Shown one piece after another: positions 2,031-39,375 of a stretch of DNA of 64,000 nucleotides (the stretch's first letter is position 1; each line of letters starts with the position of its first letter). The stretch comes from Streptomyces albus subsp. albus. Its GTDB lineage: Bacteria; Actinomycetota; Actinomycetes; Streptomycetales; Streptomycetaceae. The notes under the pieces are model-generated. The model searched no databases. It saw only the letters and a list, made by a program, of their open reading frames with translations, and was not told where the DNA came from. The position numbers were made by a program, and so were the translations under genes. The stretch spans positions 1 through 64,000 of the forward strand of contig NZ_JODR01000032.1 of NCBI RefSeq assembly GCF_000725885.1, written 5' to 3'.

Positions 2031-2039
2031 TGGCCATGG

Positions 2040-18680: not shown

Positions 18681-18854
18681 CAGGGAGCCGGACCAGGCGG
18701 CCGGGCAACGGGATTGTTCCGCATCCCTGTTATCGCCGCTGGTCGCCTGGACCGAACGTCAGCCCCACCGCCCGGCTTTCACTCGTTCGAGTGAGGCCAT
18801 GGTCCGGGGCGGGGAGGCACGGCGCCGGCCCCGGACCACGGCAGCCCGGTGGCC

Positions 18855-19555: not shown

Positions 19556-21294
19556 GCCGCCTCCAGCTCGGTCGTCTGGCCACTGAGCCACCAGCAGGTC
19601 ACGAGCATCTGGTGCAGGTCGGCGATCACCGTGGCGCACTGGCCCCGGGCCGCCTGCGTGAGCGCGGAGCGGACAGCCGCGGGGTCGATGAGCCCGCCGC
19701 CGACGAGCGGACTGGACACGATCAGCCCGTCGAGCCGGTCCCGATGCCGGGCGAGACCGGCGATGCGCTGGGCGGTGAACGAGCCCTTCGAACGCCGGGA
19801 GGTCAGCCAGTCCGGGAGCTCGGGCACCGACTCGCGCAGCAGCGGCTTGTAGGCCACCAGTCCGCGACGGGCGAGGGCCGGGACGGCGAAGGCGGCGCGG
19901 ACGACCTGGTTGTCCAGGTACGGATACACCGGCCGGATGCCGAGCGCGTGGCCGTAGGGGGCCCAGCCGCGGGCCGAGGCGCCCACCGAGCGCAGGGCGG
20001 CCCACTGGTCGAACTCGTCCGCCGGCTCCGGCTGCTGGTCTCGTGCGGCCTGCCGCAGCAGGGCTGCGACCTGGTGGCGGCCGTAGCCGGTGAGCCAGGA
20101 CGCTGCGGCCCCCAGACGGCACCAGGACCAGCCGGTCACGGCGGTCTGCGGCCTGACGGGCCCGCGCTCCAGGGCCTCGGCGGCGCGTTCGAGGGAGCCG
20201 GCCCGGCCGAGGTCGGCGGCCTGCTTGAGGGCCTTCCAGTACGGGCCGGGCGCGGTGTTGCGGAGCCGGGCGAACGCCACGACCTGGCGGTGGGCCTCGC
20301 GCCGCCGGCCGTCCTGCAGAAGCCGCACCCAACAGGAGCTGGAGGCGTCGAGGACGATGTCCCCGCCGTGCCCGGTCAGGTGCAGCGGCAGCCCCCGCAC
20401 GGGGTGCAAGTAGCTGGTGTCCATGGCGAACATCGCGGCCTCCAGCACCGGCTCTGCCCCCGTCGGCTGCCCGGCCGGAAAGGAGAACGGCAACTGCTCG
20501 TAGGCGCCGATGTCGACCGTGTGCGTGATCCCGGTGTGCTCGGCGACGCGGGAGGCGAAGGCCATGTCCTCCGCGCTGGTGTAGCCGTCGGTGTACGTCA
20601 CCGCGTGCACCGGTCCGGCGTCGGCGGCCAGCACGACGGCCGCCGAGGAGTCCAGCCCGCCCGATAGGTCCGCCCCCACCACCCCGCCGGCGGCACGGAC
20701 CCGGTACTGGACAGCCTCCGTGAGCACCTGCCCGAACCGGTCGGCGCCCTCGCGGAGCTCGTCTACCGGTGTGATGCCGGAGACGTCGATGAGCTGCGGC
20801 GGCGCCCCGGGCGCGAGCAGCAGCCCGAACCCGCCGGGCACCATGCGGATCTCCTCGTACGGGCTGCGGTGCGGCCAGTGGTGCTCACCCACCGTCAGCC
20901 GCGCCGCCAGCCACGGCAGATCCGGCACGAGCGGACGCCCCAGGAGGCGGGCCTCGGTCGCCCACGCCGCCCCTTCGTCGCCGCGCAGCGTGTAGTACAC
21001 GGCCCGGATACCGGCCAGGTCTCCGCACACGAACCGCTGCCGCCCGTCACTGGCGACCACCCAGTACGAGCCCGGCCACCGGGTCAGCTCGCCCCAGTGG
21101 CCCGCCCGTACGGCCGCGAGCGCGGCGTGAAGTTCCTGCTCGGTGACCGGGCAGTCGCCCACGACCGCGAGGGCGGCCGGTCCTTCGGCGACCGCCTGTA
21201 CGCGCGTGCCCGGAGCCCGGTGGACATCACCGAGCCCGTCGATCGCCACTGCGTCCACGGCGGCACTGCCGCCGGTCATCCACTCCCGTTCCAC
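19549..21294 (-). CDS. Lasso-peptide macrolactam synthetase (C, asparagine-synthase-like)
   Basis: A 581-residue class-B asparagine-synthetase homologue. GTG at 21294 has GGGGAGG seven bases upstream; ATG at 21279 is an alternative. The ATP-pyrophosphatase loop DLSGGLDSSAAVV is intact (SGGLDSS at residues 211-217). The N-terminal glutaminase-like domain has no Cys2 nucleophile, as expected for lasso cyclases. The enzyme should adenylate the side chain of the acceptor Asp in the core and close the ring with the new N-terminal Gly. It lies 98 bp after the precursor gene, separated by a strong hairpin. Confidence 0.9.
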   Translation of the reverse strand: MEREWMTGGSAAVDAVAIDGLGDVHRAPGTRVQAVAEGPAALAVVGDCPVTEQELHAALAAVRAGHWGELTRWPGSYWVVASDGRQRFVCGDLAGIRAVYYTLRGDEGAAWATEARLLGRPLVPDLPWLAARLTVGEHHWPHRSPYEEIRMVPGGFGLLLAPGAPPQLIDVSGITPVDELREGADRFGQVLTEAVQYRVRAAGGVVGADLSGGLDSSAAVVLAADAGPVHAVTYTDGYTSAEDMAFASRVAEHTGITHTVDIGAYEQLPFSFPAGQPTGAEPVLEAAMFAMDTSYLHPVRGLPLHLTGHGGDIVLDASSSCWVRLLQDGRRREAHRQVVAFARLRNTAPGPYWKALKQAADLGRAGSLERAAEALERGPVRPQTAVTGWSWCRLGAAASWLTGYGRHQVAALLRQAARDQQPEPADEFDQWAALRSVGASARGWAPYGHALGIRPVYPYLDNQVVRAAFAVPALARRGLVAYKPLLRESVPELPDWLTSRRSKGSFTAQRIAGLARHRDRLDGLIVSSPLVGGGLIDPAAVRSALTQAARGQCATVIADLHQMLVTCWWLSGQTTELEAAC

Positions 21295-24499: not shown

Positions 24500-26941
24500 T
24501 TATCCGAGGGAGGCGGGCGGGGCGGTGTCGTCGGTCCAGTCGCCGTCGAACAGGGAGGAGATCAGGGCTTCCTGCTCGGGGGCTAGTTGGCCGGCGCGTT
24601 GTTTGGTGCGGGTCTTGGCGAGCCACGGGCCGATTTTGACGCGCTCGCCGTCGACGGTGATCTCTTCGCGGGCGGTCGGGGCGCGGCCTTCGCGGTGGAG
24701 GAAGAGTTCCAGGAGTTGGACGGCCTGTTCGAAGGTACGGCGGGTGCGGCGCGTCGGGGCGAGCGGGTTGCTGGCGGGGGTCAGGCCGAGGGAGGTCAGC
24801 ATCTGCTGCTTACTGCGGTGGAGGGCGTGCCAGGTGGTCAGTTGGCGGTGCAGCCAGGAGCCGATCTTCACACCTTGCAGGAGGGTGTCGCGGGTGAGGG
24901 CGCCGGGGTCGGCGCCGTCGGCGAGATGGGCGCGCAGCAGGTGGTACTTGCGGTGCCAGTCCGCGCCGTGGGGCAGGCGCCAGTCGGGGGCGAGGGCGGT
25001 CAGGGCGTCGGCGCGGGCCGGATCGAGCTGGTTTTTGGCGGCGAGGTGGCGTTGTTCGGCGAGCCACGCGCCGACGGGGGTGGTGGCGGGGGCGGCGAGG
25101 TGGCCGTGGGTTCGCAGGTAGTCGGCTGCGGCGGCCAGGCGGGCGCGCCAGGCGGCGTCGTGCTTGTCCCAGATCATCCCGAGGGCGTCGAGTTCGGCGA
25201 TCCAGTCGGCTTCCAGGCGGCCGGCGGTGCGGGCGTCGCGCATGGTGGTGATGAAGGTGCCGAGCGCGTAGCCGGTGGGGTCGGTGTAGTCGGTGGGGAC
25301 GTCGAGGTGGCCGTGTTCGTCGCGGTAGGACTGGGCGGCGGCAAGTCCCAGGCGGCGGGAGCGGGAGACAGCCGGGTCGCGGGGGTCGAAGGATGCCAGG
25401 TCCATGGCGCGGGCGATGCGCTCGGGGTGGACGGTGAAGTCGAAGTGCCAGCGGCGTTCGATGACGTCGCTGGTCTCCTTGGGCAGGCGGTTGGCCTTGT
25501 CGGGCAGGCGCTCCAGGATGCGGTGGTCGTGGCTGGCCAGTGCCGTGGCGATCGCCCAGACGGGTTCGTAAGGAGTGCCGAGGATGTTTTCGCTTTCGGC
25601 GCTGGGCGGGACATAGACGGGGACGATCAGTGAGGCGGTTTTGCCGGACACGTCCAGGCGCAGGGCACGGCCGAGGGCCTGGACACAGCGGATGACGCTG
25701 CGGGTGGGGTCGGCGAAGACAACGGCGTCGACGCTGGGGATGTCGACGCCTTCGGCGATCAGGCGGGAGTTGGCCAGGACCGCGCAGTCGGCGGCGCGGA
25801 AGCCGGCGAAGATGTCGGCACGCTGAGCGGGGGTGTGCTCGCCGTGGGCGAAGAACAACTGCGGTGTGATGTCGGGGCACAGGTCGGGATCCGTGTGGCG
25901 GAGCAGGCGCAGGGTGTGGGGCAGTTCGCGGGCGAAGCGGCGGGCGTCGGAGACGAGGTTGAAGTAGACCAGCACCTTCTTCAGACCGTGCTCGGTCATG
26001 GCGCGCAGCACCGCGAGGTGCAGGGCGGTGGTGCGCAGCGCACCGTCGTCTTTGTCTTCCTCGGTGGTGCTGCCGCCCGTGGCCGCGGTGCCGGGGGTGG
26101 GGAGGTTCAGGCGGCGGCGCAGGTCGGCGTCGGTGAGAGTGGGCACCACGATGCGGTAGTCCGCGGCGCGGCCGTCGGCGACTGCCTGGGCGAGCGGGTA
26201 ATCGAAGACCTTCGGGCCGTAGACCGCCTCGTTGTCCATGGAATTGGCGAACGCGTCTGCGGCCACTGCCGTGGCGCGGCGACGGCGCGGGCGGGTGGTG
26301 TCGGCGGACTCGGCCAGTTCCGGGGCGGCGAAGATGCGGGGGGTGGCGGTCATGTAGAGGCGGCGCTCCGCGTGGATCCGCTTGGCGTCGTTGACGATGG
26401 CCCACTTCTTGTCGGCGCGGCCGGCGATCCGGTGTGCCTCGTCCATGACCGCCAGATCGAAGGGCGGCACCGCGTACTTCGTGCTCTGGGTTTGTTCGAT
26501 CTTGTCCAGGGAGTCGTAGGTGCAGATCACCGTCAGCGCCGGGATCTGGTCCTGGTCCTGCCCCACCACCGACATCAGGGCGGCCAGCGCGTGCGGGTCG
26601 GTGGTCGACATGACGCGAGCGGCCACCAGATCGTCCCGGCCGGTGGCATCCAGGGAGGAGACGATCACCATGTGCTCGGCGTGCCCGTCCCGGCGCCAGG
26701 CCAGCGCCGTCTGCGCCGCCAGGTCCAGCGTGGGCACCACGAACAGCACCAGCCGTGCGCCGAGTTCGTCCGCCACCCGGATGGACACCAGGGTCTTGCC
26801 GGTCCCTGTCGCCGAGACGTACAGCCCGCGCGTGCCCGCACGCCGCAGATGCCGCACCAGCCGCTTGACGGCCTGGAGCTGGTCGGCGAACAGCGGCCGC
26901 TTCTCAGGCCGGCCGGATGCGGCAACAGCAGCCACGGTCAT
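24500..26941 (-). CDS. DEAH-box helicase with helicase-associated (HA) repeats, copy 1
   Basis: An 813-residue superfamily 2 helicase. ATG 26941 has GAGGAA eight bases upstream. Motifs: YVSATGTGKTLVSIR (Walker A, residues about 39-50), MDEAHRIAG (DEAH), YMTATPRIF (motif III), DAVVFADPTRSVIRCVQALGRALRLD (motifs V-VI). Residues from about 540 carry HA repeats (RLGLAAAQSYRDEHGHLDVP, WRARLAAAADYLRTHGHLAAP). Such proteins are common near streptomycete chromosome ends and on linear plasmids; a role in DNA-end metabolism is suspected, not shown. A relative with the same layout lies at 34594-36957. It is divergent from tap, with a 199-bp shared promoter region. Confidence 0.8.
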   Translation of the reverse strand: MTVAAVAASGRPEKRPLFADQLQAVKRLVRHLRRAGTRGLYVSATGTGKTLVSIRVADELGARLVLFVVPTLDLAAQTALAWRRDGHAEHMVIVSSLDATGRDDLVAARVMSTTDPHALAALMSVVGQDQDQIPALTVICTYDSLDKIEQTQSTKYAVPPFDLAVMDEAHRIAGRADKKWAIVNDAKRIHAERRLYMTATPRIFAAPELAESADTTRPRRRRATAVAADAFANSMDNEAVYGPKVFDYPLAQAVADGRAADYRIVVPTLTDADLRRRLNLPTPGTAATGGSTTEEDKDDGALRTTALHLAVLRAMTEHGLKKVLVYFNLVSDARRFARELPHTLRLLRHTDPDLCPDITPQLFFAHGEHTPAQRADIFAGFRAADCAVLANSRLIAEGVDIPSVDAVVFADPTRSVIRCVQALGRALRLDVSGKTASLIVPVYVPPSAESENILGTPYEPVWAIATALASHDHRILERLPDKANRLPKETSDVIERRWHFDFTVHPERIARAMDLASFDPRDPAVSRSRRLGLAAAQSYRDEHGHLDVPTDYTDPTGYALGTFITTMRDARTAGRLEADWIAELDALGMIWDKHDAAWRARLAAAADYLRTHGHLAAPATTPVGAWLAEQRHLAAKNQLDPARADALTALAPDWRLPHGADWHRKYHLLRAHLADGADPGALTRDTLLQGVKIGSWLHRQLTTWHALHRSKQQMLTSLGLTPASNPLAPTRRTRRTFEQAVQLLELFLHREGRAPTAREEITVDGERVKIGPWLAKTRTKQRAGQLAPEQEALISSLFDGDWTDDTAPPASLG

Positions 26942-27140
26942 ACAGGTCTTCCTCGATCCGAAGCGGGACGGCGCCCCCGGGCAGCGGCCGGGGCCGGGGA
27001 GGCTGTGGGGCCGTAGCGGGACCTTCCAGCGGGCACCGTACCACCCCGGACCCCCTTCGTACGCATAATGCATGGAGAATGCGCGAGGAAGGTACGCGAT
27101 AAGTTCGTTTCACGGGGTAGGGTGCGAGCGGAGGTGTCTC

Positions 27141-29390
27141 ATGTCCGAGTTGTTCGACGCGGTTGACGCGCTGGTGGCGTCACGGTCTCCGCTGCCGCCG
27201 CCGGCGCAGCGCAAGCGGCTGCGTCAGGCCCATGCGCTCACCCTTGATGAAGTGGCCGCCGCCCTGGGCGTGCGGCGCGCGACCGTCGGCGACTGGGAGT
27301 CGGGCAGGACCGAGCCGCGGCCGCCGCAGCGGGAGGCCTACGCGCGCCTGCTGGAGCAGCTCGCGCAGCTCTACCCGGCCCCCGCCGCCGAGAGCGTCGG
27401 CGCACCGCAGGAGGACAGCGCTGCGCCGGAAACGTTCGCCGGCCCGGCGCCCACGGCGGCGCCTGTGCCCGCGGGCGGGGAGCCTGAGGCTGCGGCCAGC
27501 ACCGCATCCGGCAACATCCCTCCGCCTGCCCGCACCGCTGTTCCCGCACCGCCCGCCGCATCACGTCCGGCGCGTACCGCCCGCCCCTCGCAGACATCGC
27601 GCCACCCGGGCGAAAAGAAGGCCGCCCGGGCGAACAACCCCGCGCCCGGCGGCGCGTACGCGCACGGTCCGCTGCTCGTCCTCGACGCCGACGCCGGCCG
27701 GGAGGTGACCGGCTACGGCATCGGCGGCCTCATCCTGGACGTACCCGCCACGTCCCTGCCCGCCCTGGTCGAGTGGACACTGACCGAGGCACAGCTGGGA
27801 GCTGCGAGGCTGCACGGCTGCGGCAAGGACGCCGACCCGCTGCTGGTCCTCACGCCGACCGCGTGCGAGCGGTACGGCCTGCCCGTGGAGTTGACCGAGG
27901 CCGAGCGGCTCGCCGGGCGGCTCGGGGAAGGGCACAAGGTCATCAAGCAGCTGAAGCGTGCCAACTGGCAGCTCACCAAGCGCGGGTTCGGGCCGTGGGC
28001 GCGGATCTACCGCCCCGCGCAGGGCAGCCGTCGAAGTTGCGTGCAGCTGTGCATCCCGTCCTGGGGCGCCCTTGACGACCGCGCCTGGGGGCATGCCGCC
28101 CAGCTTCAGCCGGCACAGCTCGCCCGGGTGCTGGGCGTGTACGCGACACGGGTGATGACGCCGGTCGGCTCCACCGCCGTCACGGGACTTGAGCTGATGA
28201 CCGCGCTCAACCCGCCGACCCGCGCGAGCGAGCCGGACGCCGACGGCAGGCGCCATGCCGAGCACCGGCCCGGCTCACTGGGGACGGAGGCGATGGACCC
28301 GGCGCCGTGCGAGGCGACCGACGGACACCCGGTTCTCGCCGGCCTGCCCCGGTTCCACGTGCGCGGCCCCGGCGAGCGGCTGTTCGAGGAGGCGTACGAC
28401 TGGGCGCGGGATCTGACCGATAGCGAGTGCATGCAGCGCTACCTGGTCGGCATCGACGTGAACCTGGCGTTCGGTGCGGCCGCCAACGGCGCGGTCGTCG
28501 GCCTCGCGTCGCCGCCCGTGCACGTCACCGACCCCGTCTTCGACCCGGCGCTGCCCGGCTCCTGGCTGGTCGACCTCTCCCACGTCGATCCCTCCAGGGT
28601 GAGGGTCGCAAAGCAATGGCGCGAACTCGACGGCGACCTGCTGCCCAGCCCGTTCACCCCGACCGGTGAACGTCCCCAGGGCCCGGCCTGGTACGCCACA
28701 CCGACGGTGGCGTACGCCGTGGAGCTCGGCTACGACGTCACTCCGCTTGAGGCCTGGGTACGGCCGGAGGCCGGCCGGTTCCTGGACGGCTGGTACAAGC
28801 GGCTGCGCGACGCCTACGTCGACACCATGGCGGACCTCGGCGTCGCCGAGAAGCTGCCCCCGCGCGAGTTCCTGACGGCGATGGAGGGCTACCGCAGCCG
28901 TGACCCGGAGATGGGAATCGTCCTGGACGCGATCAAGATGACCGTCAAGGGGGGCATCGGCAAGCTGCAGGAGAAGGCGCGCGGCGGCGGTTGGAAGCCG
29001 GGGCAGTCCTGGCCCGCTCTCGCCCGGCCGACCTGGCGGCCGGACGTCCGCGCGACCGTCATCTCCCGGGCCCGGATCAACATGCACCGCAAGATGCTCA
29101 ACCTGGCGGCGGCCACCGGCCGCTACCCGGTCGCGGTCCTGTCGGACTGCGCGGTGTACGCCGCCGACGGACCCAGCCCGCTGGACGTCCTGCCCTACGG
29201 CACCGACGGCAAGACGGTGCCGGGCTCGTTCCGGCTGGGGGTCTCGCCCGGGATGGTCAAGCACGAGGGCACCCAGAGCGTGCTGTGGGGGGCGGACGTG
29301 CTCGAGCAGCTCAGCGCCGACGGCCGTGTCGCCAACCTCGCCCGCCACATCAAGACCGGCGAGCACGCCGCCAGGGACACCGGAGAGTAG
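27141..29390 (+). CDS. tap: Telomere-associated protein Tap
   Basis: A 749-residue protein, first gene of the tap-tpg pair. ATG 27141 follows GGAGGT; the longer frame beginning at 27072 has no such support. An N-terminal XRE-like helix-turn-helix (LRQAHALTLDEVAAALGVRRATVGDWESGR, residues about 27-56) is followed by a Pro/Ala-rich linker (about 80-175) and the large Tap core, including LLVLDADAGREVTGYGIGGL, VIKQLKRANWQLTKRGFGPW and ISRARINMHRKM. In streptomycetes Tap binds the 3' telomere overhang and recruits the terminal protein for end patching. A direct repeat TACGC(G)ATAA occurs at about 27060 and 27093 in the promoter region. Confidence 0.9.
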   Translation: MSELFDAVDALVASRSPLPPPAQRKRLRQAHALTLDEVAAALGVRRATVGDWESGRTEPRPPQREAYARLLEQLAQLYPAPAAESVGAPQEDSAAPETFAGPAPTAAPVPAGGEPEAAASTASGNIPPPARTAVPAPPAASRPARTARPSQTSRHPGEKKAARANNPAPGGAYAHGPLLVLDADAGREVTGYGIGGLILDVPATSLPALVEWTLTEAQLGAARLHGCGKDADPLLVLTPTACERYGLPVELTEAERLAGRLGEGHKVIKQLKRANWQLTKRGFGPWARIYRPAQGSRRSCVQLCIPSWGALDDRAWGHAAQLQPAQLARVLGVYATRVMTPVGSTAVTGLELMTALNPPTRASEPDADGRRHAEHRPGSLGTEAMDPAPCEATDGHPVLAGLPRFHVRGPGERLFEEAYDWARDLTDSECMQRYLVGIDVNLAFGAAANGAVVGLASPPVHVTDPVFDPALPGSWLVDLSHVDPSRVRVAKQWRELDGDLLPSPFTPTGERPQGPAWYATPTVAYAVELGYDVTPLEAWVRPEAGRFLDGWYKRLRDAYVDTMADLGVAEKLPPREFLTAMEGYRSRDPEMGIVLDAIKMTVKGGIGKLQEKARGGGWKPGQSWPALARPTWRPDVRATVISRARINMHRKMLNLAAATGRYPVAVLSDCAVYAADGPSPLDVLPYGTDGKTVPGSFRLGVSPGMVKHEGTQSVLWGADVLEQLSADGRVANLARHIKTGEHAARDTGE

Positions 29391-29405
29391 GGGGATCAAG
29401 GGGCG

Positions 29406-29963
29406 ATGGTCACGGTCGCGGAAGAACTCGACAGGGCGGTGCAGGGCGCGTTTACCCGACCCGTTCCCAAGTCGGCCGGGGCGCAGATGCGCTACCTCGT
29501 CAAGAGGCACGGCGGCCGGACGAAGCCGGTCGCCGAACTGCTCGGCATCAGCCAGCGCACCGTCGAGCGGTACGTGAAGAACAAGTTCAAAGCCCCCCGG
29601 CCACAGCTCGCCGACCGCCTCGAACGCGAGGTCCGCACCCGCTGGCAGCCGCAAGTCCGCGCCAGGGCGAAGCAGGCCGCGGCCACCACCGGCGGCATCA
29701 TGATCGATGTCCAGGCCCGGTTCGGCTACACCGCCGCCCCCGGCAGCACCGACCAGGCCCGCGTACGGCACCTCACCCTCGCGCTGCCGCCCCGCCACGC
29801 CGCCCGTCTCCTTCAGGCCCGGGAGGCAGGCCTCACCGAGGACCGGCTCCGCGAGATCGCCGCCGAGGCCCTGGGCGAGGTGTACTTCCGCGACAACGGC
29901 CGCCGCGCCCACGGCCTCGAAGTGGAACTCACCGACCTCATCGACCTCCAGTTCGAGCTGTAA
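29406..29963 (+). CDS. tpg: Telomere terminal protein Tpg
   Basis: A 185-residue terminal protein 15 bp downstream of tap on the same strand, in the conserved tap-tpg operon order. It has the helix-turn-helix GRTKPVAELLGISQRTVERYV (residues about 38-59) and the conserved AGAQMRYLVKRHGG start. The C-terminal half contains MIDVQARFGYTAAPGSTDQAR and ELTDLIDLQFEL. Tpg primes end patching of linear Streptomyces replicons and becomes covalently bound to the 5' ends. The length matches chromosomal Tpg proteins (about 184-185 residues). Confidence 0.92.
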   Translation: MVTVAEELDRAVQGAFTRPVPKSAGAQMRYLVKRHGGRTKPVAELLGISQRTVERYVKNKFKAPRPQLADRLEREVRTRWQPQVRARAKQAAATTGGIMIDVQARFGYTAAPGSTDQARVRHLTLALPPRHAARLLQAREAGLTEDRLREIAAEALGEVYFRDNGRRAHGLEVELTDLIDLQFEL

Positions 29964-30302
29964 GCACGCCCCAGCCCGACCACGCCCAGCCGAGGGTGAC
30001 TGACCACTTCAGCCGGTGAACGTTCCTTGCTCAGCCCGATAGACGACGACACCACCCTCCCCACATTTGGTGATCGACACCGGATTTGTCACACCGCCGC
30101 GCTGAGCCCCTCCCCGTGGCTGGCGGCGCCGGATGCCACAGAGCCGCCTCCGGTCGAACGGGCCGGTGGTGGCCGCGGTTGACCGAAAGCAATCGCTGCG
30201 GCGACGCCGGCGGCGTAGCCTTCCGTGCCGCTTGCGGATGACTGTGCGGCCGTGAACCAGGGGCGCCTGGCTGCCCGGTCGCGGACAGGGGATTCAAGGG
30301 GC
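29964..30302. other. Intergenic region between tpg and tnsA
   Basis: About 340 bp without a gene. It lies where one end of the Tn7-like module could be, but I find no convincing match to the 17-bp repeats seen at 38396-38576. The only repeats are short (ATTTGGTG...ACACCGGATTTGTCACACC at about 30064-30096). It probably carries the tnsABC promoter. Confidence 0.4.
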
Positions 30303-31070
30303 ATGGGCGTCGTGACCAAGGACATCATGGTGGTCTACCGGGACGCCGCGGGGCGCACGGTGAAGGTTCCGGCTTCACGCGCGTCAGGTGTGCCGCTGAC
30401 GGGCCGTGAGGCGGTGTGGGCGCCGTCTCGGCATCCCAGCAAGCGCAGCATCGCGACCTGGTGGTGGTCGGCCACCACCGGCCGGCTCGTGGGCTGCCGG
30501 TCGCTTCAGCGGCTGACCGTGGCGATGCTGCTGGACTTCCATCCCCAGGTGGTGGACTTCCAGGCCTGGTCGGCGCGGCTCGAATGGCGCGAGCGAGGGC
30601 GGGAGAAGAGTCTGGTGCCGGACTTCTTCCTGCGCACCGCGGCCGACACGCTCATCGTCGTGGCCTGTCCCCCGGCCGCCGGGCCCACCACCCGCTTCGA
30701 GCGGCAGCTGACGGTGCTGCGCGAGGTGTGCCAGGAGGCGGGCTGGGTGCTCGGGGCGCCGCCGCGGCCGCCCGGCCCGGTGGCGCTGGCCAACCTGCGG
30801 TGGGTGGCGCGCTACCGGCATCCGCGCAACGGCGACGCGGCCGTGGAGGGGAAACTGCAAGCAGCGTTTGCCTCTGCGCGCCCGCTGCTGGAGGGTGTCA
30901 CGGGCGCGGGGCTGCCGACACTGACCGCGCTGCCCCGCCTGTACCACATGCTGTGGCACCGGCGGCTGGGGATCGACTGGAGCGTGCCGCTGGGGCCGGG
31001 ATCACTGGTGGGGCCGGTGGGCAGCGAACCGCAGGCGATGCGCCAGCCCTACCAAGCCGAGGACGTGTGA
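30303..31070 (+). CDS. tnsA: TnsA-like heteromeric transposase endonuclease subunit
   Basis: A 255-residue TnsA-family protein, first gene of tnsABC; ATG 30303 follows AAGGGG. Residues about 70-130 match the catalytic core layout (LTVAMLLDFHPQVVDFQAWSARLEWRERG, then LVPDFFLR and LIVVACPP). In Tn7, TnsA cuts the 5' ends of the transposon. Here only the PDF aspartate is visible: the Glu of the usual ExxLE-type motif reads RSLQRL, and the position expected for the catalytic Lys/Arg after the PDF strand reads VACP. The nuclease may therefore be inactive or use an unusual active site. Its stop overlaps the tnsB start by one base. Confidence 0.75.
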   Translation: MGVVTKDIMVVYRDAAGRTVKVPASRASGVPLTGREAVWAPSRHPSKRSIATWWWSATTGRLVGCRSLQRLTVAMLLDFHPQVVDFQAWSARLEWRERGREKSLVPDFFLRTAADTLIVVACPPAAGPTTRFERQLTVLREVCQEAGWVLGAPPRPPGPVALANLRWVARYRHPRNGDAAVEGKLQAAFASARPLLEGVTGAGLPTLTALPRLYHMLWHRRLGIDWSVPLGPGSLVGPVGSEPQAMRQPYQAEDV

Positions 31071-33499
31071 TGACCACGGTGGCCACCCAGCCGCCGGTGA
31101 TGCGGCACGCCCGGCGCGGGGTCCTGGCCCCTGGCGACGGCGTGCAGTGGCACGGCGGCCGCTACACCGTCACCGCCCTGTCGGGCGTGACCGTGCACCT
31201 GGCCCCGCAGGCCGGCAGCCCGCAGCCCCCGGCGGCGGTACTGCTGGCGGCGCTGGCCGCGGCGGAGGACTTCGCGGTCCTGAACGGGGCGGGCCGGCCG
31301 GTGCCTCACACGGTGATGCCGGACTGGGCGCTGCTGGAGGGCATCAGCGAGGAAGCGGCCCGCGAGGCGCGGATCTGGGAGCGCCACGTCATCGAGGTCG
31401 ACACCGGACTGCTGCCCGGTGTGCCGGAAGGCTCCCTGCCGCGCGAGGGATACGACCCGCGGTGTACCACGCTCATCCAGCGCTACCAGGCCAAGGCCGC
31501 CGAACTGAGCGCCGTGCTGGGATGGAAGATGTCGTGGCAGACCGTGCAGACCAAGCGGCTGAAGTACAAGGCGGAAGGCGCCTGGGGACTGGTCGACAAG
31601 CGCCGCACCCGCAGCACGACGCTGTACGGGCGCACCGATATCCGGGTGGTGGACCTGCTGCTGGAACTGGTCGAGGCCGGACGCGGCGCGGTGCCGGGCA
31701 ACGCCATGAAGCTGTTCACCCAGCTGCGGCGCGCTGCCCGTGCCCGGTACGGGGCGGGAGTGAAGGTGCCGGCCGACTCCACGCTGTACAAGCTGCTCGA
31801 GCGCCTCGGCATCGACGCCAGGCGCCCGCAGGCGCCGCGCGGCCGGCACGCGCGGGCGGCGGGCCGTCCCGCCCCGCCGTTCACGGTGACCTCGGCCATC
31901 GCGCCCGGCGAGGTGGTGCAGATCGACTCCACCGATCTGGACGTGAAAGTCCTCGGCGACGACGGCCTGCCGGCTTCGGTCGAGCTGACCGCTGCCGTGG
32001 ATGTCGCCACCCGCAGCATCATCGCCGCCGTGGTGCGCCCCAAAACTCCCCGCCGCCGGCGCCGGGGAGCACAGGCGCGGCCGGGACTGATCAGCGCGCA
32101 GCGCAGTACCGGGCGGGCCACCAAGGCCGTGGACGCCTCCCTGCTGCTCGCCCAGGCTCTGGTGCCGGCCCCGATGCGGCCCGGCTTCAGCCCGCTGGCG
32201 CACGCCAGCGCCTCGCACCTTCCCTACGACGAACTCGCCGCCGCCGATGAGCGGTTCGCGCAGGCGGCCGGCCGCCCGGTCATCGTGCCCGACCTGATCG
32301 TGATCGACCACGGCACGGTGTTCGCCGGGCGGACCTTCTTCGACGCCTGCGCCTATCTGGGGATCTCCGTCCGCCCGGCCCGGCGGCGCACCCCCACCGA
32401 CAAGGCGATCGTCGAGCGCACCTTCGCCTCCGTCAAGTCCATGTTCAGCCAGTGGGTGAACACCTACACCGGGCACGACTTCACCCGCCGCGCTGCGGCG
32501 GTGGACGGCCAGCGGCTGTGGACGCTGGCCCAGCTCGATGACCTGCTGCAGGAGTGGATCGCCCTGGGCTGGCAGAACCATCCGCACGAAGAGCTGCGCA
32601 GCCCCTACGACCCGAACCTCCCTGCCCTGACGCCAAATCAGATGTATGCGGCGTGCGTGCAGGCCGCGGGTTACCTGCCGATCCCCCTGGGCGAGGAGGA
32701 CTACCTGCGGCTGCTGCCCACCGCGTGGGTGGGCGTCACCGACCAGGGCATCCGCTTCAAGAACCGCACCTACGAGAACCCCTCCACCGACCCCGACGAG
32801 GGGTTGAACCCGTACCGGTACCGGGCGTCGGGGCTGCGGGGCAAAAAGCGCGGAGGGTGGGAGCTGCGCTACAACCCCTACACCCCGGAACGGGTGTGGC
32901 TGCGCGACCACCAGCGTGATCGGTGGGTGGAGGCCACCTTCGTCCACCAGCACCTGATCGGCGCGCCGTGGACGCAGTACCTGTGGGACGTGGCCTGTGC
33001 CGAGCATGTCGAGCGCGGCGGCGGCAGCAAGGATGAGGAGGCGATCGCGCAGGCCCTGGCCGAGCTGCTGGAGCGGGCCGGGCACGGCCCGCAGGAGCCG
33101 GGCGCGGTCACCGTCCCGGACGGCTACGGTCCCGCGCTCCTGCCCGCTCCCGCCCCGGCACCGTTCGACCCGTACGCGGGGGCCGCGCCGGTGGACCTGA
33201 CGGGACTTGAGCCTCTGGGCAGCCTCGAGCTGGACGACCTGGGCATGTACACAGCCGCCCCCTTGCCCGCGCCGCCGGCCGGCGAGGGGCCTGCAGCGAT
33301 GCGCTGGGAGGAGCCCGGCGCCTCACATGCCCCTCCGCCGCCGGCGGGCGCGGGCTCCGTGGGCGGCGGCGCAGACCTCGCCGCGGCGGGCGGCGGGCAG
33401 GACTTCACCGACTGGTACTGGAAGGGCCTGCCCGCCATCACACCCCTGCCACCGCTGGACGACGACGGCGACAGCCCACCGCCTCGTGGCCCCATCTGA
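31070..33499 (+). CDS. tnsB: TnsB-like DDE transposase
   Basis: An 809-residue integrase-core transposase starting at ATG 31070 (TGATG overlap with tnsA). The DDE triad is visible: VVQIDSTDLDVKV (first Asp, about residue 285), IVIDHGTVFAG (second Asp) and TPTDKAIVERTFASVKSMF (Glu). N-terminal helical domains for end binding precede it, and a C-terminal Pro/Ala/Gly-rich tail of about 150 residues ends in DWYWKGLPAITPLPPL, perhaps a TnsC-interaction tail. TnsB should recognise the transposon ends and carry out 3'-end cleavage and joining. Confidence 0.88.
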   Translation: MTTVATQPPVMRHARRGVLAPGDGVQWHGGRYTVTALSGVTVHLAPQAGSPQPPAAVLLAALAAAEDFAVLNGAGRPVPHTVMPDWALLEGISEEAAREARIWERHVIEVDTGLLPGVPEGSLPREGYDPRCTTLIQRYQAKAAELSAVLGWKMSWQTVQTKRLKYKAEGAWGLVDKRRTRSTTLYGRTDIRVVDLLLELVEAGRGAVPGNAMKLFTQLRRAARARYGAGVKVPADSTLYKLLERLGIDARRPQAPRGRHARAAGRPAPPFTVTSAIAPGEVVQIDSTDLDVKVLGDDGLPASVELTAAVDVATRSIIAAVVRPKTPRRRRRGAQARPGLISAQRSTGRATKAVDASLLLAQALVPAPMRPGFSPLAHASASHLPYDELAAADERFAQAAGRPVIVPDLIVIDHGTVFAGRTFFDACAYLGISVRPARRRTPTDKAIVERTFASVKSMFSQWVNTYTGHDFTRRAAAVDGQRLWTLAQLDDLLQEWIALGWQNHPHEELRSPYDPNLPALTPNQMYAACVQAAGYLPIPLGEEDYLRLLPTAWVGVTDQGIRFKNRTYENPSTDPDEGLNPYRYRASGLRGKKRGGWELRYNPYTPERVWLRDHQRDRWVEATFVHQHLIGAPWTQYLWDVACAEHVERGGGSKDEEAIAQALAELLERAGHGPQEPGAVTVPDGYGPALLPAPAPAPFDPYAGAAPVDLTGLEPLGSLELDDLGMYTAAPLPAPPAGEGPAAMRWEEPGASHAPPPPAGAGSVGGGADLAAAGGGQDFTDWYWKGLPAITPLPPLDDDGDSPPPRGPI

Positions 33500-33537
33500 C
33501 CTGTGACACCCGCTCTTGCCCTGTGCCCTGAGATGAG

Positions 33538-34581
33538 TTGGACCAACCCGTGAAGCAGCCCGACACCGACCTGCTCGCCCTGGGCGTGGCCCCGCCGCCA
33601 ACCCCGCCCGCCCCCAGGTGGCTGGACACCCGGCAGGCGTGGAAGACCTTCGCGGCCAGGCGCCCGCAGCCGCCGGACCTCGCCGACTGCGCGCCCCTGG
33701 GCACCGACATCGCCGACAGCGACCCCCGCCTGCTCTACCACGGTCAGATGCGTATGGTCCGCACCCCCGCGATCAGCCGTGCGCTGCCCGTCGTCCACCA
33801 GCAGATCCTGGCCAACCGCCAGCGCACCCACGGCCGGGTGGGCATCATCATCGAAGGCCCGCGCAGCACCGGCAAGACCGTGCTGCTGCAGGCCATCGGC
33901 CTGCACTACGAGCACAAGATCCAGCGCCTGTACGCGCCGGACGACAACCGGATCCCGGTGATCACCCTCAGCGTGCCCGCTCCGGGCCGCGGCGGCGCAC
34001 GGAACTGGCCGGCCGCGTTCGCCGCCTTCCTCGGGCTGGAACGCGACGGCGGGTCCGACCCCACCCGATCCATCTGCCATGTCATGCGTGCCAGCGGCAC
34101 CCTGCTGGTCCTCATCGACGGCATCGAACACCTGCGGCCGGGCACGGACACCGAGCAGACCTTCGACTACCTCTCCTACATCAGCGAGCAGACCGGGGCG
34201 ACGTTCATCTACTGCGGCCGCGGCGCCCGCTCCATCGTCGACCCGATGACCCGGGACCGGGAGACCGAGCGCGCACAGGGCGAAGAGCCGTGGGGCGACC
34301 ACGTGGTGCTGCGCACCCGCCGCATCGGCTTCAGCGACGACGAACGGGTGGAGTTCGCCCAGATCGTCGACGCCTTCGACCGCGACCTGCGCCTGCACCA
34401 TCACACCCCGGGTGAGCTGACCACGCTCGCCCCCTACCTGCACAAGCGGAGCAAGGGATACCTGCGGGCCCTGTCCCAGCTCATCTGCCAGGCCGCGCAG
34501 CAGGCCATGCTCACCAAGACCGAACGCATCACCGAGGAACTGCTGGACTCACTCCACCTGGGCCGCAGCATCACCCTGTGA
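33538..34581 (+). CDS. tnsC: TnsC-like AAA+ ATPase
   Basis: A 347-residue AAA ATPase, third gene of the module. Walker A is IIEGPRSTGKTVLL (about residues 101-114) and Walker B is TLLVLIDGIEHL, followed by a sensor region (GATFIYCGRGARS). In Tn7-like elements TnsC links the target-selecting TniQ/TnsD protein to the TnsAB transposase. The start is uncertain: TTG 33538 or GTG 33550, neither with a strong ribosome binding site, 38-50 bp after tnsB. The C-terminus (LGRSITL) overlaps a convergent terminator. Confidence 0.82.
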   Translation: MDQPVKQPDTDLLALGVAPPPTPPAPRWLDTRQAWKTFAARRPQPPDLADCAPLGTDIADSDPRLLYHGQMRMVRTPAISRALPVVHQQILANRQRTHGRVGIIIEGPRSTGKTVLLQAIGLHYEHKIQRLYAPDDNRIPVITLSVPAPGRGGARNWPAAFAAFLGLERDGGSDPTRSICHVMRASGTLLVLIDGIEHLRPGTDTEQTFDYLSYISEQTGATFIYCGRGARSIVDPMTRDRETERAQGEEPWGDHVVLRTRRIGFSDDERVEFAQIVDAFDRDLRLHHHTPGELTTLAPYLHKRSKGYLRALSQLICQAAQQAMLTKTERITEELLDSLHLGRSITL

Positions 34582-34597
34582 CCGGTGAGCCGGTCAC
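34578..34597. terminator. Bidirectional hairpin between tnsC and the convergent helicase gene
   Basis: GTGACCGG (34578-34585), loop TGAG, CCGGTCAC (34590-34597): a perfect 8-bp stem spanning both stop codons of the convergent genes. It is well placed to terminate transcription from either side. Confidence 0.6.
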
Positions 34598-36957
34598 TTC
34601 TGCCGGTCGCGCGTGGACGGCATGCCCTCTCGTGCGGCGGCCTTGCCGCGACGGCCGGCACGGGCGAGGCGGACATCCCACACCATGCGCATCGCCTCAA
34701 GGGCCGACCGTTCCTGCGGGGTCAGCTTCTGCGGCCAGCGGCGGTGCTTGAGAATGAAGGCGCCCAGACGGACGGGGCCGATCCAGGTTTCCTCCACGTG
34801 CGCCCGCGGCACCAGCAGGTTCCCCTCGCGGGCGAGGTACGCGGCCGCGGCGATCAGCCCGCGGCGGAACTCCTGCCGCTCAGGCGTGACGAACGGCCCC
34901 GGATACAGGCTGTCCACGTCGGGCGTGGCGCCGAGCTCGAGGAGCAACTGGGCCTGGGCGGGGTCCAGTTGTCTCCACCGGTTGCGCTGGCGGTTCAGCC
35001 ACTGGCCCAGCGGCACACCGTCACCGGTGCGCCAGTCGCCGGGCAGGTCCACACTGCCGCCGGCCTCCACATGCGCTTTGGCGGCCGCGTAAGTGCGCCG
35101 CCAGGTCAGCGGGAAGGGCGGGTTCCACCAGGGGTCGATCCCGCGCAGGGCCTGCTCCTGCTCGCGTGTCAGGGTGCCGGCGCCGGCCCGGGCCCGGCAG
35201 CTGGCCAGCCAGGCGCCGACGCGGTAGCCGCCGGCGGTGGCGGTTGTCGGGGCGGCCAAGTGCCCGTGCTCGTCGGCGTAAGCCCGCGCGTGGGCGAGCA
35301 TGCGCTCGAAAGTGTGCTCGGGCGGTGTCCACAGCATGCCCAGCCGCTTCAGCGCGCGTACCTGGGCGGGTGGGATGCGGCCCAGGAGGTAGCGCAGGCG
35401 CTGGTTGACGATCCACTCCCCCAGGGCGAAGCCCTCGTCGTCGACGAAGGTCTCCGGCACGTCCAGATGCCGGTGCTTGGTGGCGTAGCGGGTTGCGGCG
35501 CGCAGGGCCTCCTCCCAGGTGCCGGTTGCCGGCAGGGTGATCTGAAGGCCCAGGGCGGCGGCGAGTTCCGCGGCGCGCTCCGGCTGGCTGTAGTGCAGAC
35601 GGCGGCCCAGCACCCGCCCGCCGGGGCGGCGCTCGGGCAGGGCGATCCGGTCCAGGTAGGAGTCGTCATGGGCGCGCAGGGCCTGCAGGATCGACCACAG
35701 GGCGCCGAAGGAGGAGTTCTTCAGCAGCTTGCCCGGCGACGTTTTGTCGGGCAGATAGACCGGGATGACCAAGGTGGCGATCTTGCCGCTGCCGGGTGGC
35801 TGGCGCAGGGCCCGGCCGATCGCCTGGATCGCGTCGATCACGCTGTAGCGGGGGTCGGCGAACACCACCGCGTCGACCGCGGGCATGTCGACGCCTTCGT
35901 TGAGCACCCGCACGTTGCACAGCACGGCCTTCTCGATCGCCTCGTCGCCGAAGGCGGCCAGCACACCCCGGCGGTAGCCGGGGTCCTGCTCGCCGTCGAT
36001 GGCGTACGCCCACAGTTTCTCGATGCGCAGCGGCGCAGGCACGGCGGCTGCGGTGGCGGGCAGGGTGCCGGCGAAATGGTGCGCGGCATCGACCCGGTTG
36101 TGGAAGACCAGCACGCGCCGCAGGTCCTGCTCGGCCATCGCCCGCAGCACCGCCACCTGGATCGCGGCTGTGCGCAGCCCGTCGTGATGGGCGCTGGTGG
36201 CCGGGCGTCGCTCCGCCAGGATCGTCTGCAGATCGTCGTCGCCGACCACCGGCATGAGGACCTGGTAGTCGGCCAGGATCCCCTCCTCGATCGCCTTGGC
36301 CAGCCCGAGGGTGTAGACGGTGGGCCCGAAGACGTCCTCGCGGTCCATCGTGGCCGTCGGCGCCCGCTCCACGAACTCCGCCAACTCCCTGGGCGCCTGG
36401 CCGTTGAAGATCCTCGGCGTCGCCGTCATGTACAGGCGTACCTTGGCCGGCACCAGCTGGTCGTCATGGACCTTGCCCCAGCCCTCCCCCACCCCCATAC
36501 ACGTGCGGTGGGCCTCATCGGCGATGATCAGGTCCCACGACGGCAGCGCGAACAGCTCATGCGCCCGCACGACCACAGGGAGGGAGTCGTAGGTCGCGAA
36601 GACCGCCAGCGGACCGCCAGCGGTCAGCGCCATCGCCACACGCAGGGGGTCGTTCGTCATCACCGCCTGGGAGCGAGCCAGCCCACTGCGGGACTGCGGC
36701 AGCGAACACACCCCCAGCGCCCGCCCCTGGTAGCCGGCCTCCCGCCACCGGGAGATCGTCTGGGTGACCAGCGCGAGCGTGGGCATCAACACCAGCACCG
36801 CACCCGATGGGGCCACCTGCTCGGCGGCCCGGCAGGCGATCAGCGTCTTACCCGTGCCGCACGCAGCCACCACCGTCATCCGCCGCTCACCCCGCCGCAC
36901 CGCCCGACGGATCGCGGCAAGGGCCCGGACCTGGTGCGGAAATAGCTCCATGGCCAT
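34594..36957 (-). CDS. DEAH-box helicase with HA repeats, copy 2, inside the Tn7-like module
   Basis: About 787 residues from ATG 36957; upstream GTG/TTG codons near 36975, after GTGAGGAAG, could also start it. Motifs: VAACGTGKTLIACR (Walker A), IADEAHRTC (DEAH), YMTATPRIF, DAVVFADPRYSVIDAIQAIGRALRQ (V-VI), then HA repeats from about residue 500 (LAHARAYADEHGHLAAP, TRYATKHRHLDVP). The layout matches the helicase at 24500-26941, but the sequence is clearly diverged. It lies between tnsC and tniQ on the opposite strand, divergent from tniQ, so it is either cargo or an accessory gene of the element. Confidence 0.78.
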   Translation of the reverse strand: MAMELFPHQVRALAAIRRAVRRGERRMTVVAACGTGKTLIACRAAEQVAPSGAVLVLMPTLALVTQTISRWREAGYQGRALGVCSLPQSRSGLARSQAVMTNDPLRVAMALTAGGPLAVFATYDSLPVVVRAHELFALPSWDLIIADEAHRTCMGVGEGWGKVHDDQLVPAKVRLYMTATPRIFNGQAPRELAEFVERAPTATMDREDVFGPTVYTLGLAKAIEEGILADYQVLMPVVGDDDLQTILAERRPATSAHHDGLRTAAIQVAVLRAMAEQDLRRVLVFHNRVDAAHHFAGTLPATAAAVPAPLRIEKLWAYAIDGEQDPGYRRGVLAAFGDEAIEKAVLCNVRVLNEGVDMPAVDAVVFADPRYSVIDAIQAIGRALRQPPGSGKIATLVIPVYLPDKTSPGKLLKNSSFGALWSILQALRAHDDSYLDRIALPERRPGGRVLGRRLHYSQPERAAELAAALGLQITLPATGTWEEALRAATRYATKHRHLDVPETFVDDEGFALGEWIVNQRLRYLLGRIPPAQVRALKRLGMLWTPPEHTFERMLAHARAYADEHGHLAAPTTATAGGYRVGAWLASCRARAGAGTLTREQEQALRGIDPWWNPPFPLTWRRTYAAAKAHVEAGGSVDLPGDWRTGDGVPLGQWLNRQRNRWRQLDPAQAQLLLELGATPDVDSLYPGPFVTPERQEFRRGLIAAAAYLAREGNLLVPRAHVEETWIGPVRLGAFILKHRRWPQKLTPQERSALEAMRMVWDVRLARAGRRGKAAAREGMPSTRDRQK

Positions 36958-37174
36958 CTGTTCGGTGTCCAACACGAGCGAGACGGACTTCCTCACGCAG
37001 CAGATCCCCAAGAGCAGACCGGCAGGCGATCTGCGCGGGTACTGTACAAATGCGGCATCGGCGCAGCACCGAAAACCAGCCAACTTGTCGACTCCAGAGG
37101 TGAGTTGAGCTGAACATAGCCCGCTGCGGGGCCGGTCCTGATCCGGTGCCGGCCGCCGTCTCAAGGGACACCAG

Positions 37175-38350
37175 GTGGACGCCGCAGCAGACGTGCACGA
37201 CGGTCATGGCCGATCACGCGGAAGGATGCCCCAAGCCACCATGCCGAAGACCCCGCGCAAGAAGCGAACGCACACACGCACCAGCTGGGCGCCCGCCCAG
37301 CCGCTGCCACGACAGATCCGTTTCATCGCCGGCGAGTCCACCGGCTCCTTCGCCCGACGGCTGGCCGCAGAAAACGGCCTTCAACCCGAGGAATTCTGGC
37401 CCATGGTCGGCAACGGCGGGCAGATCTTCGACCCCCGCTACTCCGAGGTCTACCTCAACGCCGCCGCACTGAGCCGCCTTGCCCGCCTGGCCGGACACGA
37501 CGCCGCCACCCTGCAGTGGCTCCTGCCCAACCTGCGCCCCCACCACCTGATGGACACCGGCCCGAGCCCCGAGTGGCGCTGGCCCTGGGACGCCGCCTCC
37601 GGCTACCTGGTACGCGCCTGCGAACTGTGCGCCCGCGCCAAAGGCACCGACGAAAACGCCTACCTCATCTCACCCACCACATGGCAGGTCTGCACCCGGC
37701 ACCAGCGCTGGCTGGACAACCGCCGCGAGGAGCACACCGGCTCCATCCCCCTGCACCACCTGCCCGACATTATCCAAGCCCACCACCGACGCCTCACGCT
37801 GGAACGCCGCCTCGGCGAATCCGGACGCGCCCTGTTCGCCGACGCCTACGCCATCGCCGCCTATTGGTGGAATCTGCCCGTCCTCTCCCCGCCCGTGTGG
37901 CGCGAGCGCCAAAACCACCTCCGACCCGCCAAAACAGACGACGTCCGCTGCGCCCCGCTCGTCCTCTACCCCGAAGCCGTACACATGGCCGAAGCCATGG
38001 CCGCCCGCGAACGCCGACGCCTGCGCGGCACCCTCACTACCAACCAGGCACATTCATGGCTCCACCACGTCGCCGCCCTCCTCGACGACTGGCAGATGCC
38101 AGCCGACCTCGCGATCCAGCCCGCCCTCCAGTGGGCCGCACGCCACCAGAACCCGGACCCCGCACACCAGCCGAACCCCCGCCCCGCACGCGGCCGCTAC
38201 CGCCGCCTCCCCCTCCCCCACCCGCACACCACCCAGACCACCGACACCCCACTGCCCGAACTGTCCTGCCTCCCCTGGCAGATCGGCGAACTCCTCAGCC
38301 CGAACCTGACCCCCGCACCCGGCGGATGGACCCTCACCGGCCGAGCCTGA
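37175..38350 (+). CDS. tniQ: TniQ/TnsD-like target-selection protein
   Basis: A 391-residue TniQ-family protein. GTG 37175 has AAGGGA about seven bases upstream; ATG 37226 and 37241 are alternatives. The N-terminal TniQ signature is LPRQIRFIAGESTGSFARRLAAENGL (about residues 44-69); the zinc-binding block is CELCARAKGTDENAYL...WQVCTRHQRWL (about 149-180). The C-terminus is a Pro/His-rich tail. In Tn7-like elements such proteins choose the attachment site. With tnsABC upstream it completes a core transposition set. The downstream region carries end-like repeats. Confidence 0.82.
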   Translation: MDAAADVHDGHGRSRGRMPQATMPKTPRKKRTHTRTSWAPAQPLPRQIRFIAGESTGSFARRLAAENGLQPEEFWPMVGNGGQIFDPRYSEVYLNAAALSRLARLAGHDAATLQWLLPNLRPHHLMDTGPSPEWRWPWDAASGYLVRACELCARAKGTDENAYLISPTTWQVCTRHQRWLDNRREEHTGSIPLHHLPDIIQAHHRRLTLERRLGESGRALFADAYAIAAYWWNLPVLSPPVWRERQNHLRPAKTDDVRCAPLVLYPEAVHMAEAMAARERRRLRGTLTTNQAHSWLHHVAALLDDWQMPADLAIQPALQWAARHQNPDPAHQPNPRPARGRYRRLPLPHPHTTQTTDTPLPELSCLPWQIGELLSPNLTPAPGGWTLTGRA

Positions 38351-38395
38351 CGGCCCCCGGCCCCCGGCCAGCTCCCCAACGCCAAAGAATTATCC

Positions 38396-38576
38396 GTGCA
38401 GTTACGACATTCCAAGTGCACTTACAACATCGCAGGTCACTACGTCACAGACGCAGTACCTCATCATCGACAATCACCTATACCACCTGCTCAGTCCCAT
38501 GGCGGGCGCTCTCACCCAGCCTCTCTGCCTACCCACAACACCCCAGCTCACAGAGCTCCCGATGTCGTAACTTCAC
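38396..38576. repeat. GTGnAGTTACGACAT direct and inverted repeats, candidate transposon end
   Basis: Two direct copies with a 20-bp period (GTGCAGTTACGACAT at 38396-38410, GTGCACTTACAACAT at 38416-38430) are followed by an inverted copy at 38560-38576 (CGATGTCGTAACTTCAC, whose complement is GTGAAGTTACGACATCG). A weaker partial copy follows at about 38579-38591 (GATAACCGACATCC). They sit in a gap between two convergent genes, where operators are unlikely, and resemble the arrays of transposase-binding sites at Tn7-like ends. The region is AT-richer than its flanks. Confidence 0.55.
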
Positions 38577-38682
38577 AGATAACCGACATCCTCTTCCGGG
38601 GAGACCGGGCGGTATCTGCGGCCTGCCGCGTAACGTGCGTCCCAGGTGGCCGCTGTGAGAACCGGCACGGGTGCGCTCCTCT

Positions 38683-39375
38683 CTACCGTGGGGCGTTCTG
38701 GAGGCTCTTGAGTGCCGCTCTGCGCACTGTGGGCGGGAAGCCGAGCCGCTCGGCGGCCTCGGCGTAGCTGAGCGATGCTTGGCCGGCGAGCTGTGCGATG
38801 CGTTCACGACGCAGGTTGGCCAGGGCGCGTTGTGCTGTGGCCGGCGCGACTCCGAGGGCGTCGCAGACCTCGGAGACTGTGACGGCCGGCTTGGCGTCCA
38901 GTAGCGCGGCCACTTTGGCGTGCAGCTGGTTCCGGGGTACCGCGTTGCCCTTGCCCTTGGGTCGGCCGGTCGCGCTGCTCTTCCCGGGGCGCGTGTCCTG
39001 GAAGGCCCGTACGGTGCCGCGGGGCCAGTGTTCGACGCCGCACACGACCACCATGTGGGAGGCCAGGAGAGGGTCGGTTTTGTAGGCGTCCCAGCTACGG
39101 GTTTTCACTCCCAGTTCGGCGGCTGCTTCGTGGCGGTCGAGGAGGTCCTGTTCTCCTCCCGCCGGCGGCAGGTCAGGTACGGGGGTGCCGGCGAGGTAAG
39201 CCGCGGTCTGCTCGCCGTCCCAGAGGAGGACCCGGGCCTGGGGCGAACTGATGGGGGCGGGGAAGCCCTGGGCGGTGTAGGGCTTCTTGTTGCGGAACGT
39301 TCCCATGGACATGCCCATATCGCGCGCCAGGAGCTCCCTGGTCCGCACGAGGTGTTGACGCTCCGGATGGATCAT
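38683..39375 (-). CDS. Multi-HTH DNA-binding protein
   Basis: A 230-residue protein; ATG 39375 follows AGGAGTG by eight bases. Several helix-turn-helix-like segments are visible: RELLARDMGMSMGTFRN (residues about 12-28), RHEAAAELGVKTRSWDAYK (78-96), AVTVSEVCDALGVAPATAQRALANLRRE (about 163-190) and LSYAEAAERLGFPPTVRRAAL (about 200-220). It looks like a DNA-binding accessory or regulatory factor rather than an enzyme. Its stop faces the repeat-bearing gap after tniQ. It may flank or belong to the Tn7-like element. Confidence 0.65.
   Translation of the reverse strand: MIHPERQHLVRTRELLARDMGMSMGTFRNKKPYTAQGFPAPISSPQARVLLWDGEQTAAYLAGTPVPDLPPAGGEQDLLDRHEAAAELGVKTRSWDAYKTDPLLASHMVVVCGVEHWPRGTVRAFQDTRPGKSSATGRPKGKGNAVPRNQLHAKVAALLDAKPAVTVSEVCDALGVAPATAQRALANLRRERIAQLAGQASLSYAEAAERLGFPPTVRRAALKSLQNAPR

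Follow-up and report, generated by a model that had tools for sequence, protein, structure and literature searches.

The 64,000-nucleotide stretch of Streptomyces albus subsp. albus DNA analysed here (the window) probably contains a telomeric Tn7-like transposon, equipped with telomere-maintenance genes of its own, which replaces the ends of linear replicons. The window corresponds to bases 1-64000 of the 72,430-base contig NZ_JODR01000032.1, from a 7.63-Mb draft genome of 104 contigs; it starts where the contig starts, and DNA further to the left is not in the contig. A single transposon end was defined at position 38588, and the other boundary of the element would be a telomere lying to the left, off the contig. 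Elements in which Tn7-like machinery occupies the end of a linear replicon, bounded on one side by a transposon end and on the other by the telomere, have reportedly been described before. The kind of element is already known; this is a variant that carries tap and tpg as cargo, and the unexpected part is an apparent link between end position and a degenerate TnsA.

Proteins and open reading frames (ORFs) of the window were assigned to domains by Pfam and NCBIfam profile scans. From left to right, the gene order was an HA-domain helicase (minus strand), tap, tpg, tnsA, tnsB, tnsC, a second HA-domain helicase (minus strand), tniQ, the transposon end and a flanking helix-turn-helix (HTH) gene, as follows.

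24500..26941, minus strand: HA-domain DEAD/ResIII helicase left of tap (Pfam HA, ResIII, DEAD, Helicase_C), which we take to be TtrA-like; the part 26079-26941 is common to the window and the related locus L017
27141..29390, plus strand: tap, telomere-associated protein (NF047542, 1080.7 bits, cut-off 600; scanned as 27072-29390)
29406..29963, plus strand: tpg, telomere terminal protein (NF047541, 283 bits, cut-off 90)
30303..31070, plus strand: tnsA-like subunit with degenerate nuclease motifs according to motif alignment (NF033179, actinobacterial TnsA-like, 162.1 bits, cut-off 110)
31070..33499, plus strand: tnsB, DDE-type transposase (Pfam Mu-transpos_C; D286, D413, E449)
33550..34581, plus strand: tnsC/tniB AAA+ ATPase (Pfam AAA_22, TniB; Walker A, GKT motif)
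34594..36996, minus strand: HA-domain helicase between tnsC and tniQ (Pfam HA, 162 bits, scanned as 34594-37164; ResIII, DEAD, Helicase_C)
37175..38350, plus strand: tniQ, target selector (PF06527, 37 bits, cut-off 27; CxxC..CxxH motif)
38399..38588, no strand assigned: sole defined transposon end, with repeats AGTTACGACAT (38400, plus; 38562, minus) and ACTTACAACAT (38420, plus); terminus ...CGACA at 38588, reading inward 5'-TGTCGGTTATCTG
38683..39375, minus strand: flanking HTH gene (DUF6292-like; HTH families), outside the element

A preliminary description of this DNA had placed tap, tpg, tnsA, tnsB, tnsC and tniQ at these positions, and all six gave NCBIfam or Pfam matches; the 340-bp gap that it gave between tpg and tnsA was also correct (tpg stop at 29963, tnsA called from 30303). 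The unit is bigger than the extent it proposed, 27141..38576, with its end at 38588 and DNA common to L017 reaching leftward to 26079. The helicase between tnsC and tniQ had been considered an unusual accessory; it was instead found, on the minus strand, in nine of the ten members of the clade (the window, L017-L023, L002 and G007), L019 being without it. The Tn7-like core set was complete in the window, comprising the DDE-type transposase TnsB, the TnsC ATPase and TniQ, all with their motifs. TnsB residues D286, D413 and E449, which are presumably catalytic, were invariant across three aligned proteins, and the motifs were also present in the window protein. Judging from the 370-residue L017 relative, the true start of tniQ is probably near 37238. 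A plus-strand ORF of 786 residues overlying the helicase at 34594-36996 had no Pfam match even at an E value of 5 and was rejected as antisense noise.

The end at 38588 was proposed from its repeats and terminus before the comparison with L017, a locus of the relative Streptomyces sp. CC208A whose TnsB matches that of the window at 89%. The window and L017 aligned over 26079-29981 (92.9%) and 30178-38588 (88.0%), giving more than 12 kb in common, within which lie tap, tpg and a portion of the helicase to the left of tap. On the left, the match was limited at 26079 by the start of the L017 contig. On the right, the preliminary description had allowed for a block with no definable end and the same neighbours everywhere; instead, similarity broke at 38588 (L017 position 12497) and the flanks differed, the DNA beyond being unrelated, so that there were two different junctions on one end sequence. 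Read inward the terminus begins 5'-TGT, and the repeats of the end are candidate binding sites for TnsB.

The terminus occurred once in the 64-kb window and the repeat twice at the end, with one weak copy at 46746. Even when up to 2 or 3 mismatches were allowed, the window contained no second copy of the end, so that the matching end repeats with a 5-bp target duplication anticipated in the preliminary description were represented by a single end only. The empty site that it also anticipated was sought with the right flank of the window in 40 relatives, which yielded short matches only, none of them usable. With up to one mismatch, the end motif was not found in L018-L023, L002, G007, L015, L016 or L003 (11 loci). 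No plasmid record matched most of the left or the right part of the window, none covering 80%.

A structure bounded by a single transposon end on one side and by the replicon end on the other is real in a sister group of elements. On the complete linear plasmids L003, L082, L083 and L084, identity of the element between the plasmid end and one transposon end at approximately 9.2 kb was 98-100% (rounded). All four elements stopped at the same end sequence and then gave four different junctions. L083 was without the outer 64-80 bases; L083 and L084 have a 99% backbone in common and are joined 1.6 kb apart, and L003 and L082 are from one strain. These junctions bear on the proposal that a larger arm was transferred from one replicon end to another by homologous recombination or break-induced replication, with the tns block as a passenger. 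Such a process has a precedent, since passages of PMC7205883 put forward terminal crossover and break-induced replication to explain how Streptomyces telomeres are switched, but the junctions fall on the same end sequence in the window and L017, and on another common end in the four plasmids, with different DNA beyond, and we regard this explanation as highly improbable. In a separate observation, DNA to the right of the element end in L084 (9240 in the reverse complement) was 76% identical to the element's own tnsC end, which suggests insertion into another such element. One strain has L003-type tns genes near both ends of each of its plasmids, NZ_CP108735 and NZ_CP108736.

That the element travels with linear-replicon end functions, as had been suggested, was supported by the position of tap. 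In nine of the ten clade members, including the window, tap was no more than approximately 3 kb from tnsA (the exception is G007, and tap of L018 is cut by the contig edge), compared to only two of 27 other tns loci (L034 and L043), for which flank lengths varied. These 27 were L024-L044, L003, L082-L084, L015 and L016; L101-L116, L122-L125 and the short match loci were left out. The tap-tpg pair reads with tnsA in the window and L017, and tap reads away from it in the other seven. The window Tap was the sole NF047542 match over the cut-off in its genome, two other weak matches being far below, and the window Tpg was likewise the sole match over its cut-off. Further Tap genes are present in the genomes of some relatives. 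The tpg match of L017 (3315-3870) is in two overlapping pieces in different frames, either broken or mis-sequenced, and another Tap is encoded elsewhere in that genome. L019 (5703-6851) and L023 (6242-6967) have a second TniQ-like gene to the left of tap, between tap and a tpg-like gene; its product is 33-36% identical to the window TniQ (with a Pfam TniQ match for L019), giving two possible target selectors per element.

The further suggestion that the element targets linear-replicon ends was strengthened by the L017 end, which sits inside a terminal ttrA-like helicase gene, and by relatives of the window's flanking HTH gene, which were concentrated near linear-plasmid ends. The DNA to the right of the L017 end codes for part of the helicase (Helicase_C). 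Among the first 40 of 521 records with relatives of this helicase, of which the first is circular and the topology of most is unchecked, 31 had the gene within 3 kb of the record end (expected 2.2) and none of these 31 read outward. For the flanking HTH gene, 60 of 77 plasmid records were counted, again with the topology of most unchecked: the gene was within 10 kb of the record end in 28 (expected 12.2) and within 5 kb in 19 (expected 6.1), and it read outward in 57. TnsB matches, counted in 60 of 192 records that mixed linear and circular replicons, were within 20 kb of the record end in 36 (expected 13.6), of which 28 read away from the end. Insertion next to replicon ends would thus hold for the clade by way of the L017 end and the kin of the flanking gene, rather than being seen directly at the window.

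The join in L017 corresponds to base 1563 from the end of the linear plasmid AM 2-1-1 (94% over 776 bp). Bases 1563-3600 of the AM 2-1-1 locus were present in the CC208A draft genome, on two contigs; for the outer bases 1-1562 the sole match in that genome was a 100-bp one (71%), located on the contig of the element itself. Absence of the outer 1,562 bp with retention of 1563-3600 is what end replacement would leave. A conventional Tn7-like element with two ends and a preference for subtelomeric targets, with its left end beyond the contig start and tap-tpg as ordinary cargo, would not account for the outer part of the target being missing from that draft, nor for the extension of related elements on complete linear plasmids to the plasmid end itself. 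Since just 38.6 kb is visible to the left of the defined end, and the 5'-TGT with repeated sites resembles a normal Tn7 end, this explanation has points in its favour; overall we consider it unlikely.

The TnsA-like cutting subunit seems, from alignment of its motifs, to have lost its active site. In the intact-type TnsB clade, TnsA retained the xES, PD and VDxRP-type motifs (22 loci with a reading). In the window clade, xES was replaced by CRS in all ten members and VDxRP by VACPP (VHCPP in L023), with PD kept; L021 and L022 retained an E three residues after the lost xES glutamate. In the L003-type clade, which has 11 members in the tree, a GS-type sequence replaced xES in 10 of 10 with a reading and PQ replaced PD in 11, and L122, an L003-type protein outside the 11, had PH in place of PD. 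A third clade was without the xES glutamate in six of six loci (L030, L031, L043, L102, L111 and L115); no TnsA row was obtained for L101, L016 and L007, and L114 gave just a fragment. We assigned roles to the catalytic E, D and QxK-type residues after Tn7. The solved chain 9bw1 (named Integrase), presumably a TnsA-TnsB fusion, aligned weakly (E 0.0064); it kept the E of xES and PD, and not the later E of L021 and L022. In an unrooted TnsB tree, all degenerate-TnsA tips fell to the same side of a single branch (support 0.825), and a single loss of the TnsA motifs is therefore possible.

Of the three degenerate-TnsA clades, one, the L003-type, hugs plasmid ends. Among plasmid records no shorter than 100 kb, 34 of 35 of the L003-type (degenerate) had TnsA within 25 kb of an end, compared to 3 of 21 intact-type Streptomyces plasmids. 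For all record sizes the counts were 39 of 41 and 4 of 22, respectively, some records being shorter than 50 kb, where the test is empty. The L003-type group was the first 41 of 121 records, cut where identity drops below 46% and intact-type rows start, a limit chosen with the positions known; of the next 19 listed rows, 5 fell inside the 25-kb limit. Motif readings were obtained for 14 of the 41 L003-type plasmids (L003, L082-L084, L104-L108, L116 and L122-L125; for L003 and L082 the reading is from the opposite end of that plasmid) and were degenerate in all, and the rest were typed by identity. Of the first 49 rows in the intact-type listing, 22 were from Streptomyces and made up the intact-type group, with motifs read in L112 and L113 only. 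The P value for the comparison, 1e-10, is too small because the plasmids are related. Plasmids of NBC_00053, NBC_01450 and S. mirabilis NBC_01248 each had an L003-type TnsA at the end and an intact type inside, the types for NBC_01450 being given without a motif reading. The comparison suggests that end position is linked to degenerate TnsA motifs, which was unexpected.

The degenerate TnsA motifs and their relation to end position suggest end replacement by one-ended copying. A model of copying out to the telomere would fit the presence of just one end, the loss of the outer part of the target and the tap-tpg cargo. TniQ and TnsC would choose subtelomeric DNA, and TnsB would join the single end to the target, with the TnsA-like subunit as a structural, non-cutting partner. 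DNA synthesis from the target 3' end would then copy the element out to its telomere; the target replicon would shed its old end and gain a new one, plus the Tap and Tpg that maintain it. If the donor is linear, one strand transfer and subsequent copying to the telomere would swap the end and leave no cointegrate. More tentatively, telomeric Tn7-like transposons in general could be one-ended copy-and-replace machines that have abandoned TnsA cutting for this reason, with the tap-tpg clade delivering a telomere together with its maintenance proteins and so explaining telomere switching in Streptomyces; we hold this wider view to be possible, with some doubt.

Prototypic Tn7 and TniQ-type Tn7-like elements have tnsABC and tniQ and a 5'-TGT end with repeated sites. 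The window has all of these features; it differs in that its TnsA nuclease motifs are degenerate and no second end was found in 64 kb. Unlike in cut-and-paste Tn7, the full set of catalytic-type residues was not present in TnsA, the E of xES and the VDxRP-type motif being lost and PD kept in ten of ten clade members. In TnsA-less Tn7-like elements, according to passages of PMC11406308, replication through the element fuses donor and target into a cointegrate. The window element would resemble such replicative elements (Tn5053 and the type V-K CRISPR-associated transposon, as treated in those passages) in being expected to copy rather than to be cut out; it differs in keeping a degenerate TnsA-like protein, and no resolvase domain was found among the 40 window proteins and ORFs scanned with Pfam. 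Telomeric transposons of linear bacterial genomes are the subject of Hsieh et al. 2025 (Science 387, eadp1973), as cited in passages of PMC12669027 and PMC13228271. The L003-type elements share with them the reported structure of one transposon end plus the replicon end, whereas in the window clade tap-tpg adjoins tnsA and two members are tens of kilobases inside the telomere. Neither TnsA motif loss nor its link to end position was found in the literature searched, which did not include the text of Hsieh et al. 2025, and no word starting with "telomer" was found in the main text of a survey of target selectors (PMC10293859). Streptomyces telomere types turn over along with their cognate tap-tpg genes, for which passages of PMC7205883 propose crossover and break-induced replication. 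The window has the tap-tpg pair of the systems treated there, with the difference that its pair rides on a transposon. If the end-replacement reading is true, a transposon that carries tap-tpg would be a direct vehicle for telomere switching; if TnsA cutting is dispensable, it would represent a natural one-ended transposition system on linear DNA.

Several observations weigh against end replacement. No clade member was found at the very end of a replicon: the member in R302 is 55 kb from a sequenced telomere (a hairpin-rich contig end) and the one on the NBC_00564 plasmid is 129 kb from a sequenced telomere, distances that reflect either large cargo or burial by later insertions. The NBC_00564 plasmid has another TnsA-like gene and an HA helicase outside the clade element. 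The left edge of the window had 2 hairpins in its first 400 bp, against a background mean of 1.5, and was rejected as a telomere because no hairpin cluster was present. G007 is without tap beside tnsA. L021 and L022 have in common a 93% block with sharp borders, which starts a little to the left of tnsA and goes no further than the tniQ stop; the end-replacement model does not explain this. CC208A is represented by a draft genome, and telomeres are often lost in assembly, which bears on the missing outer part of the ttrA-like target. Among 27 non-Streptomyces intact-type rows, which were outside the comparison above and mostly of unchecked topology, 13 were within 25 kb of the record end (expected 9.4), and the intact-type element of a linear Rhodococcus ruber replicon was 2 kb from the end; because of these rows, our estimates for end replacement and for the wider copy-and-replace view were lowered slightly and that for a two-ended element raised.

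Eight of the ten clade members were without a recognisable copy of the window's end motif in the DNA searched, which also counts against end replacement. Together with the two members 55 and 129 kb from telomeres, they would be in keeping with a tns block that is static or domesticated and adjoins the normal tap-tpg locus of the host. Such a block does not fit the more than 12 kb that the window and L017 have in common at 88-93% with different right flanks, nor the retention of the TnsB motif residues, and it appears quite improbable.

In G007, a 1,158-base run of N (G007:C1:5132316-5133473) lies 75 kb to the left of the tns block, between ordinary-looking flanks. No hairpin cluster was found at the flanks of this run or at the contig ends. 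The run is roughly midway between Tap genes at 5.00 and 5.27 Mb and is perhaps a joined pair of chromosome ends.

Elsewhere in the window, the minus strand of 2243-11335 carries consecutive genes for a DUF2399/DUF3323 protein, a long protein with a weak SMC_N match, a DUF2398 protein and a DUF2397 protein, a row that resembles a type III Wadjet defence operon. It is followed at 11616-14012 by a gene for a UvrD-like helicase. ABC transporter and asparagine-synthase genes are present at 16782-21258 (minus strand), and the stretch around them was 89% identical over 6.8 kb to a plasmid of Streptomyces sp. NBC_01454, where it is annotated with lasso peptide biosynthesis. A pPIWI_RE module lies at 49199-56255 (plus strand), with an REase domain, a 1096-residue protein without a Pfam match and RNaseH/X domains; this region was 85% identical over 7.8 kb to a plasmid of Streptomyces sp. 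769.

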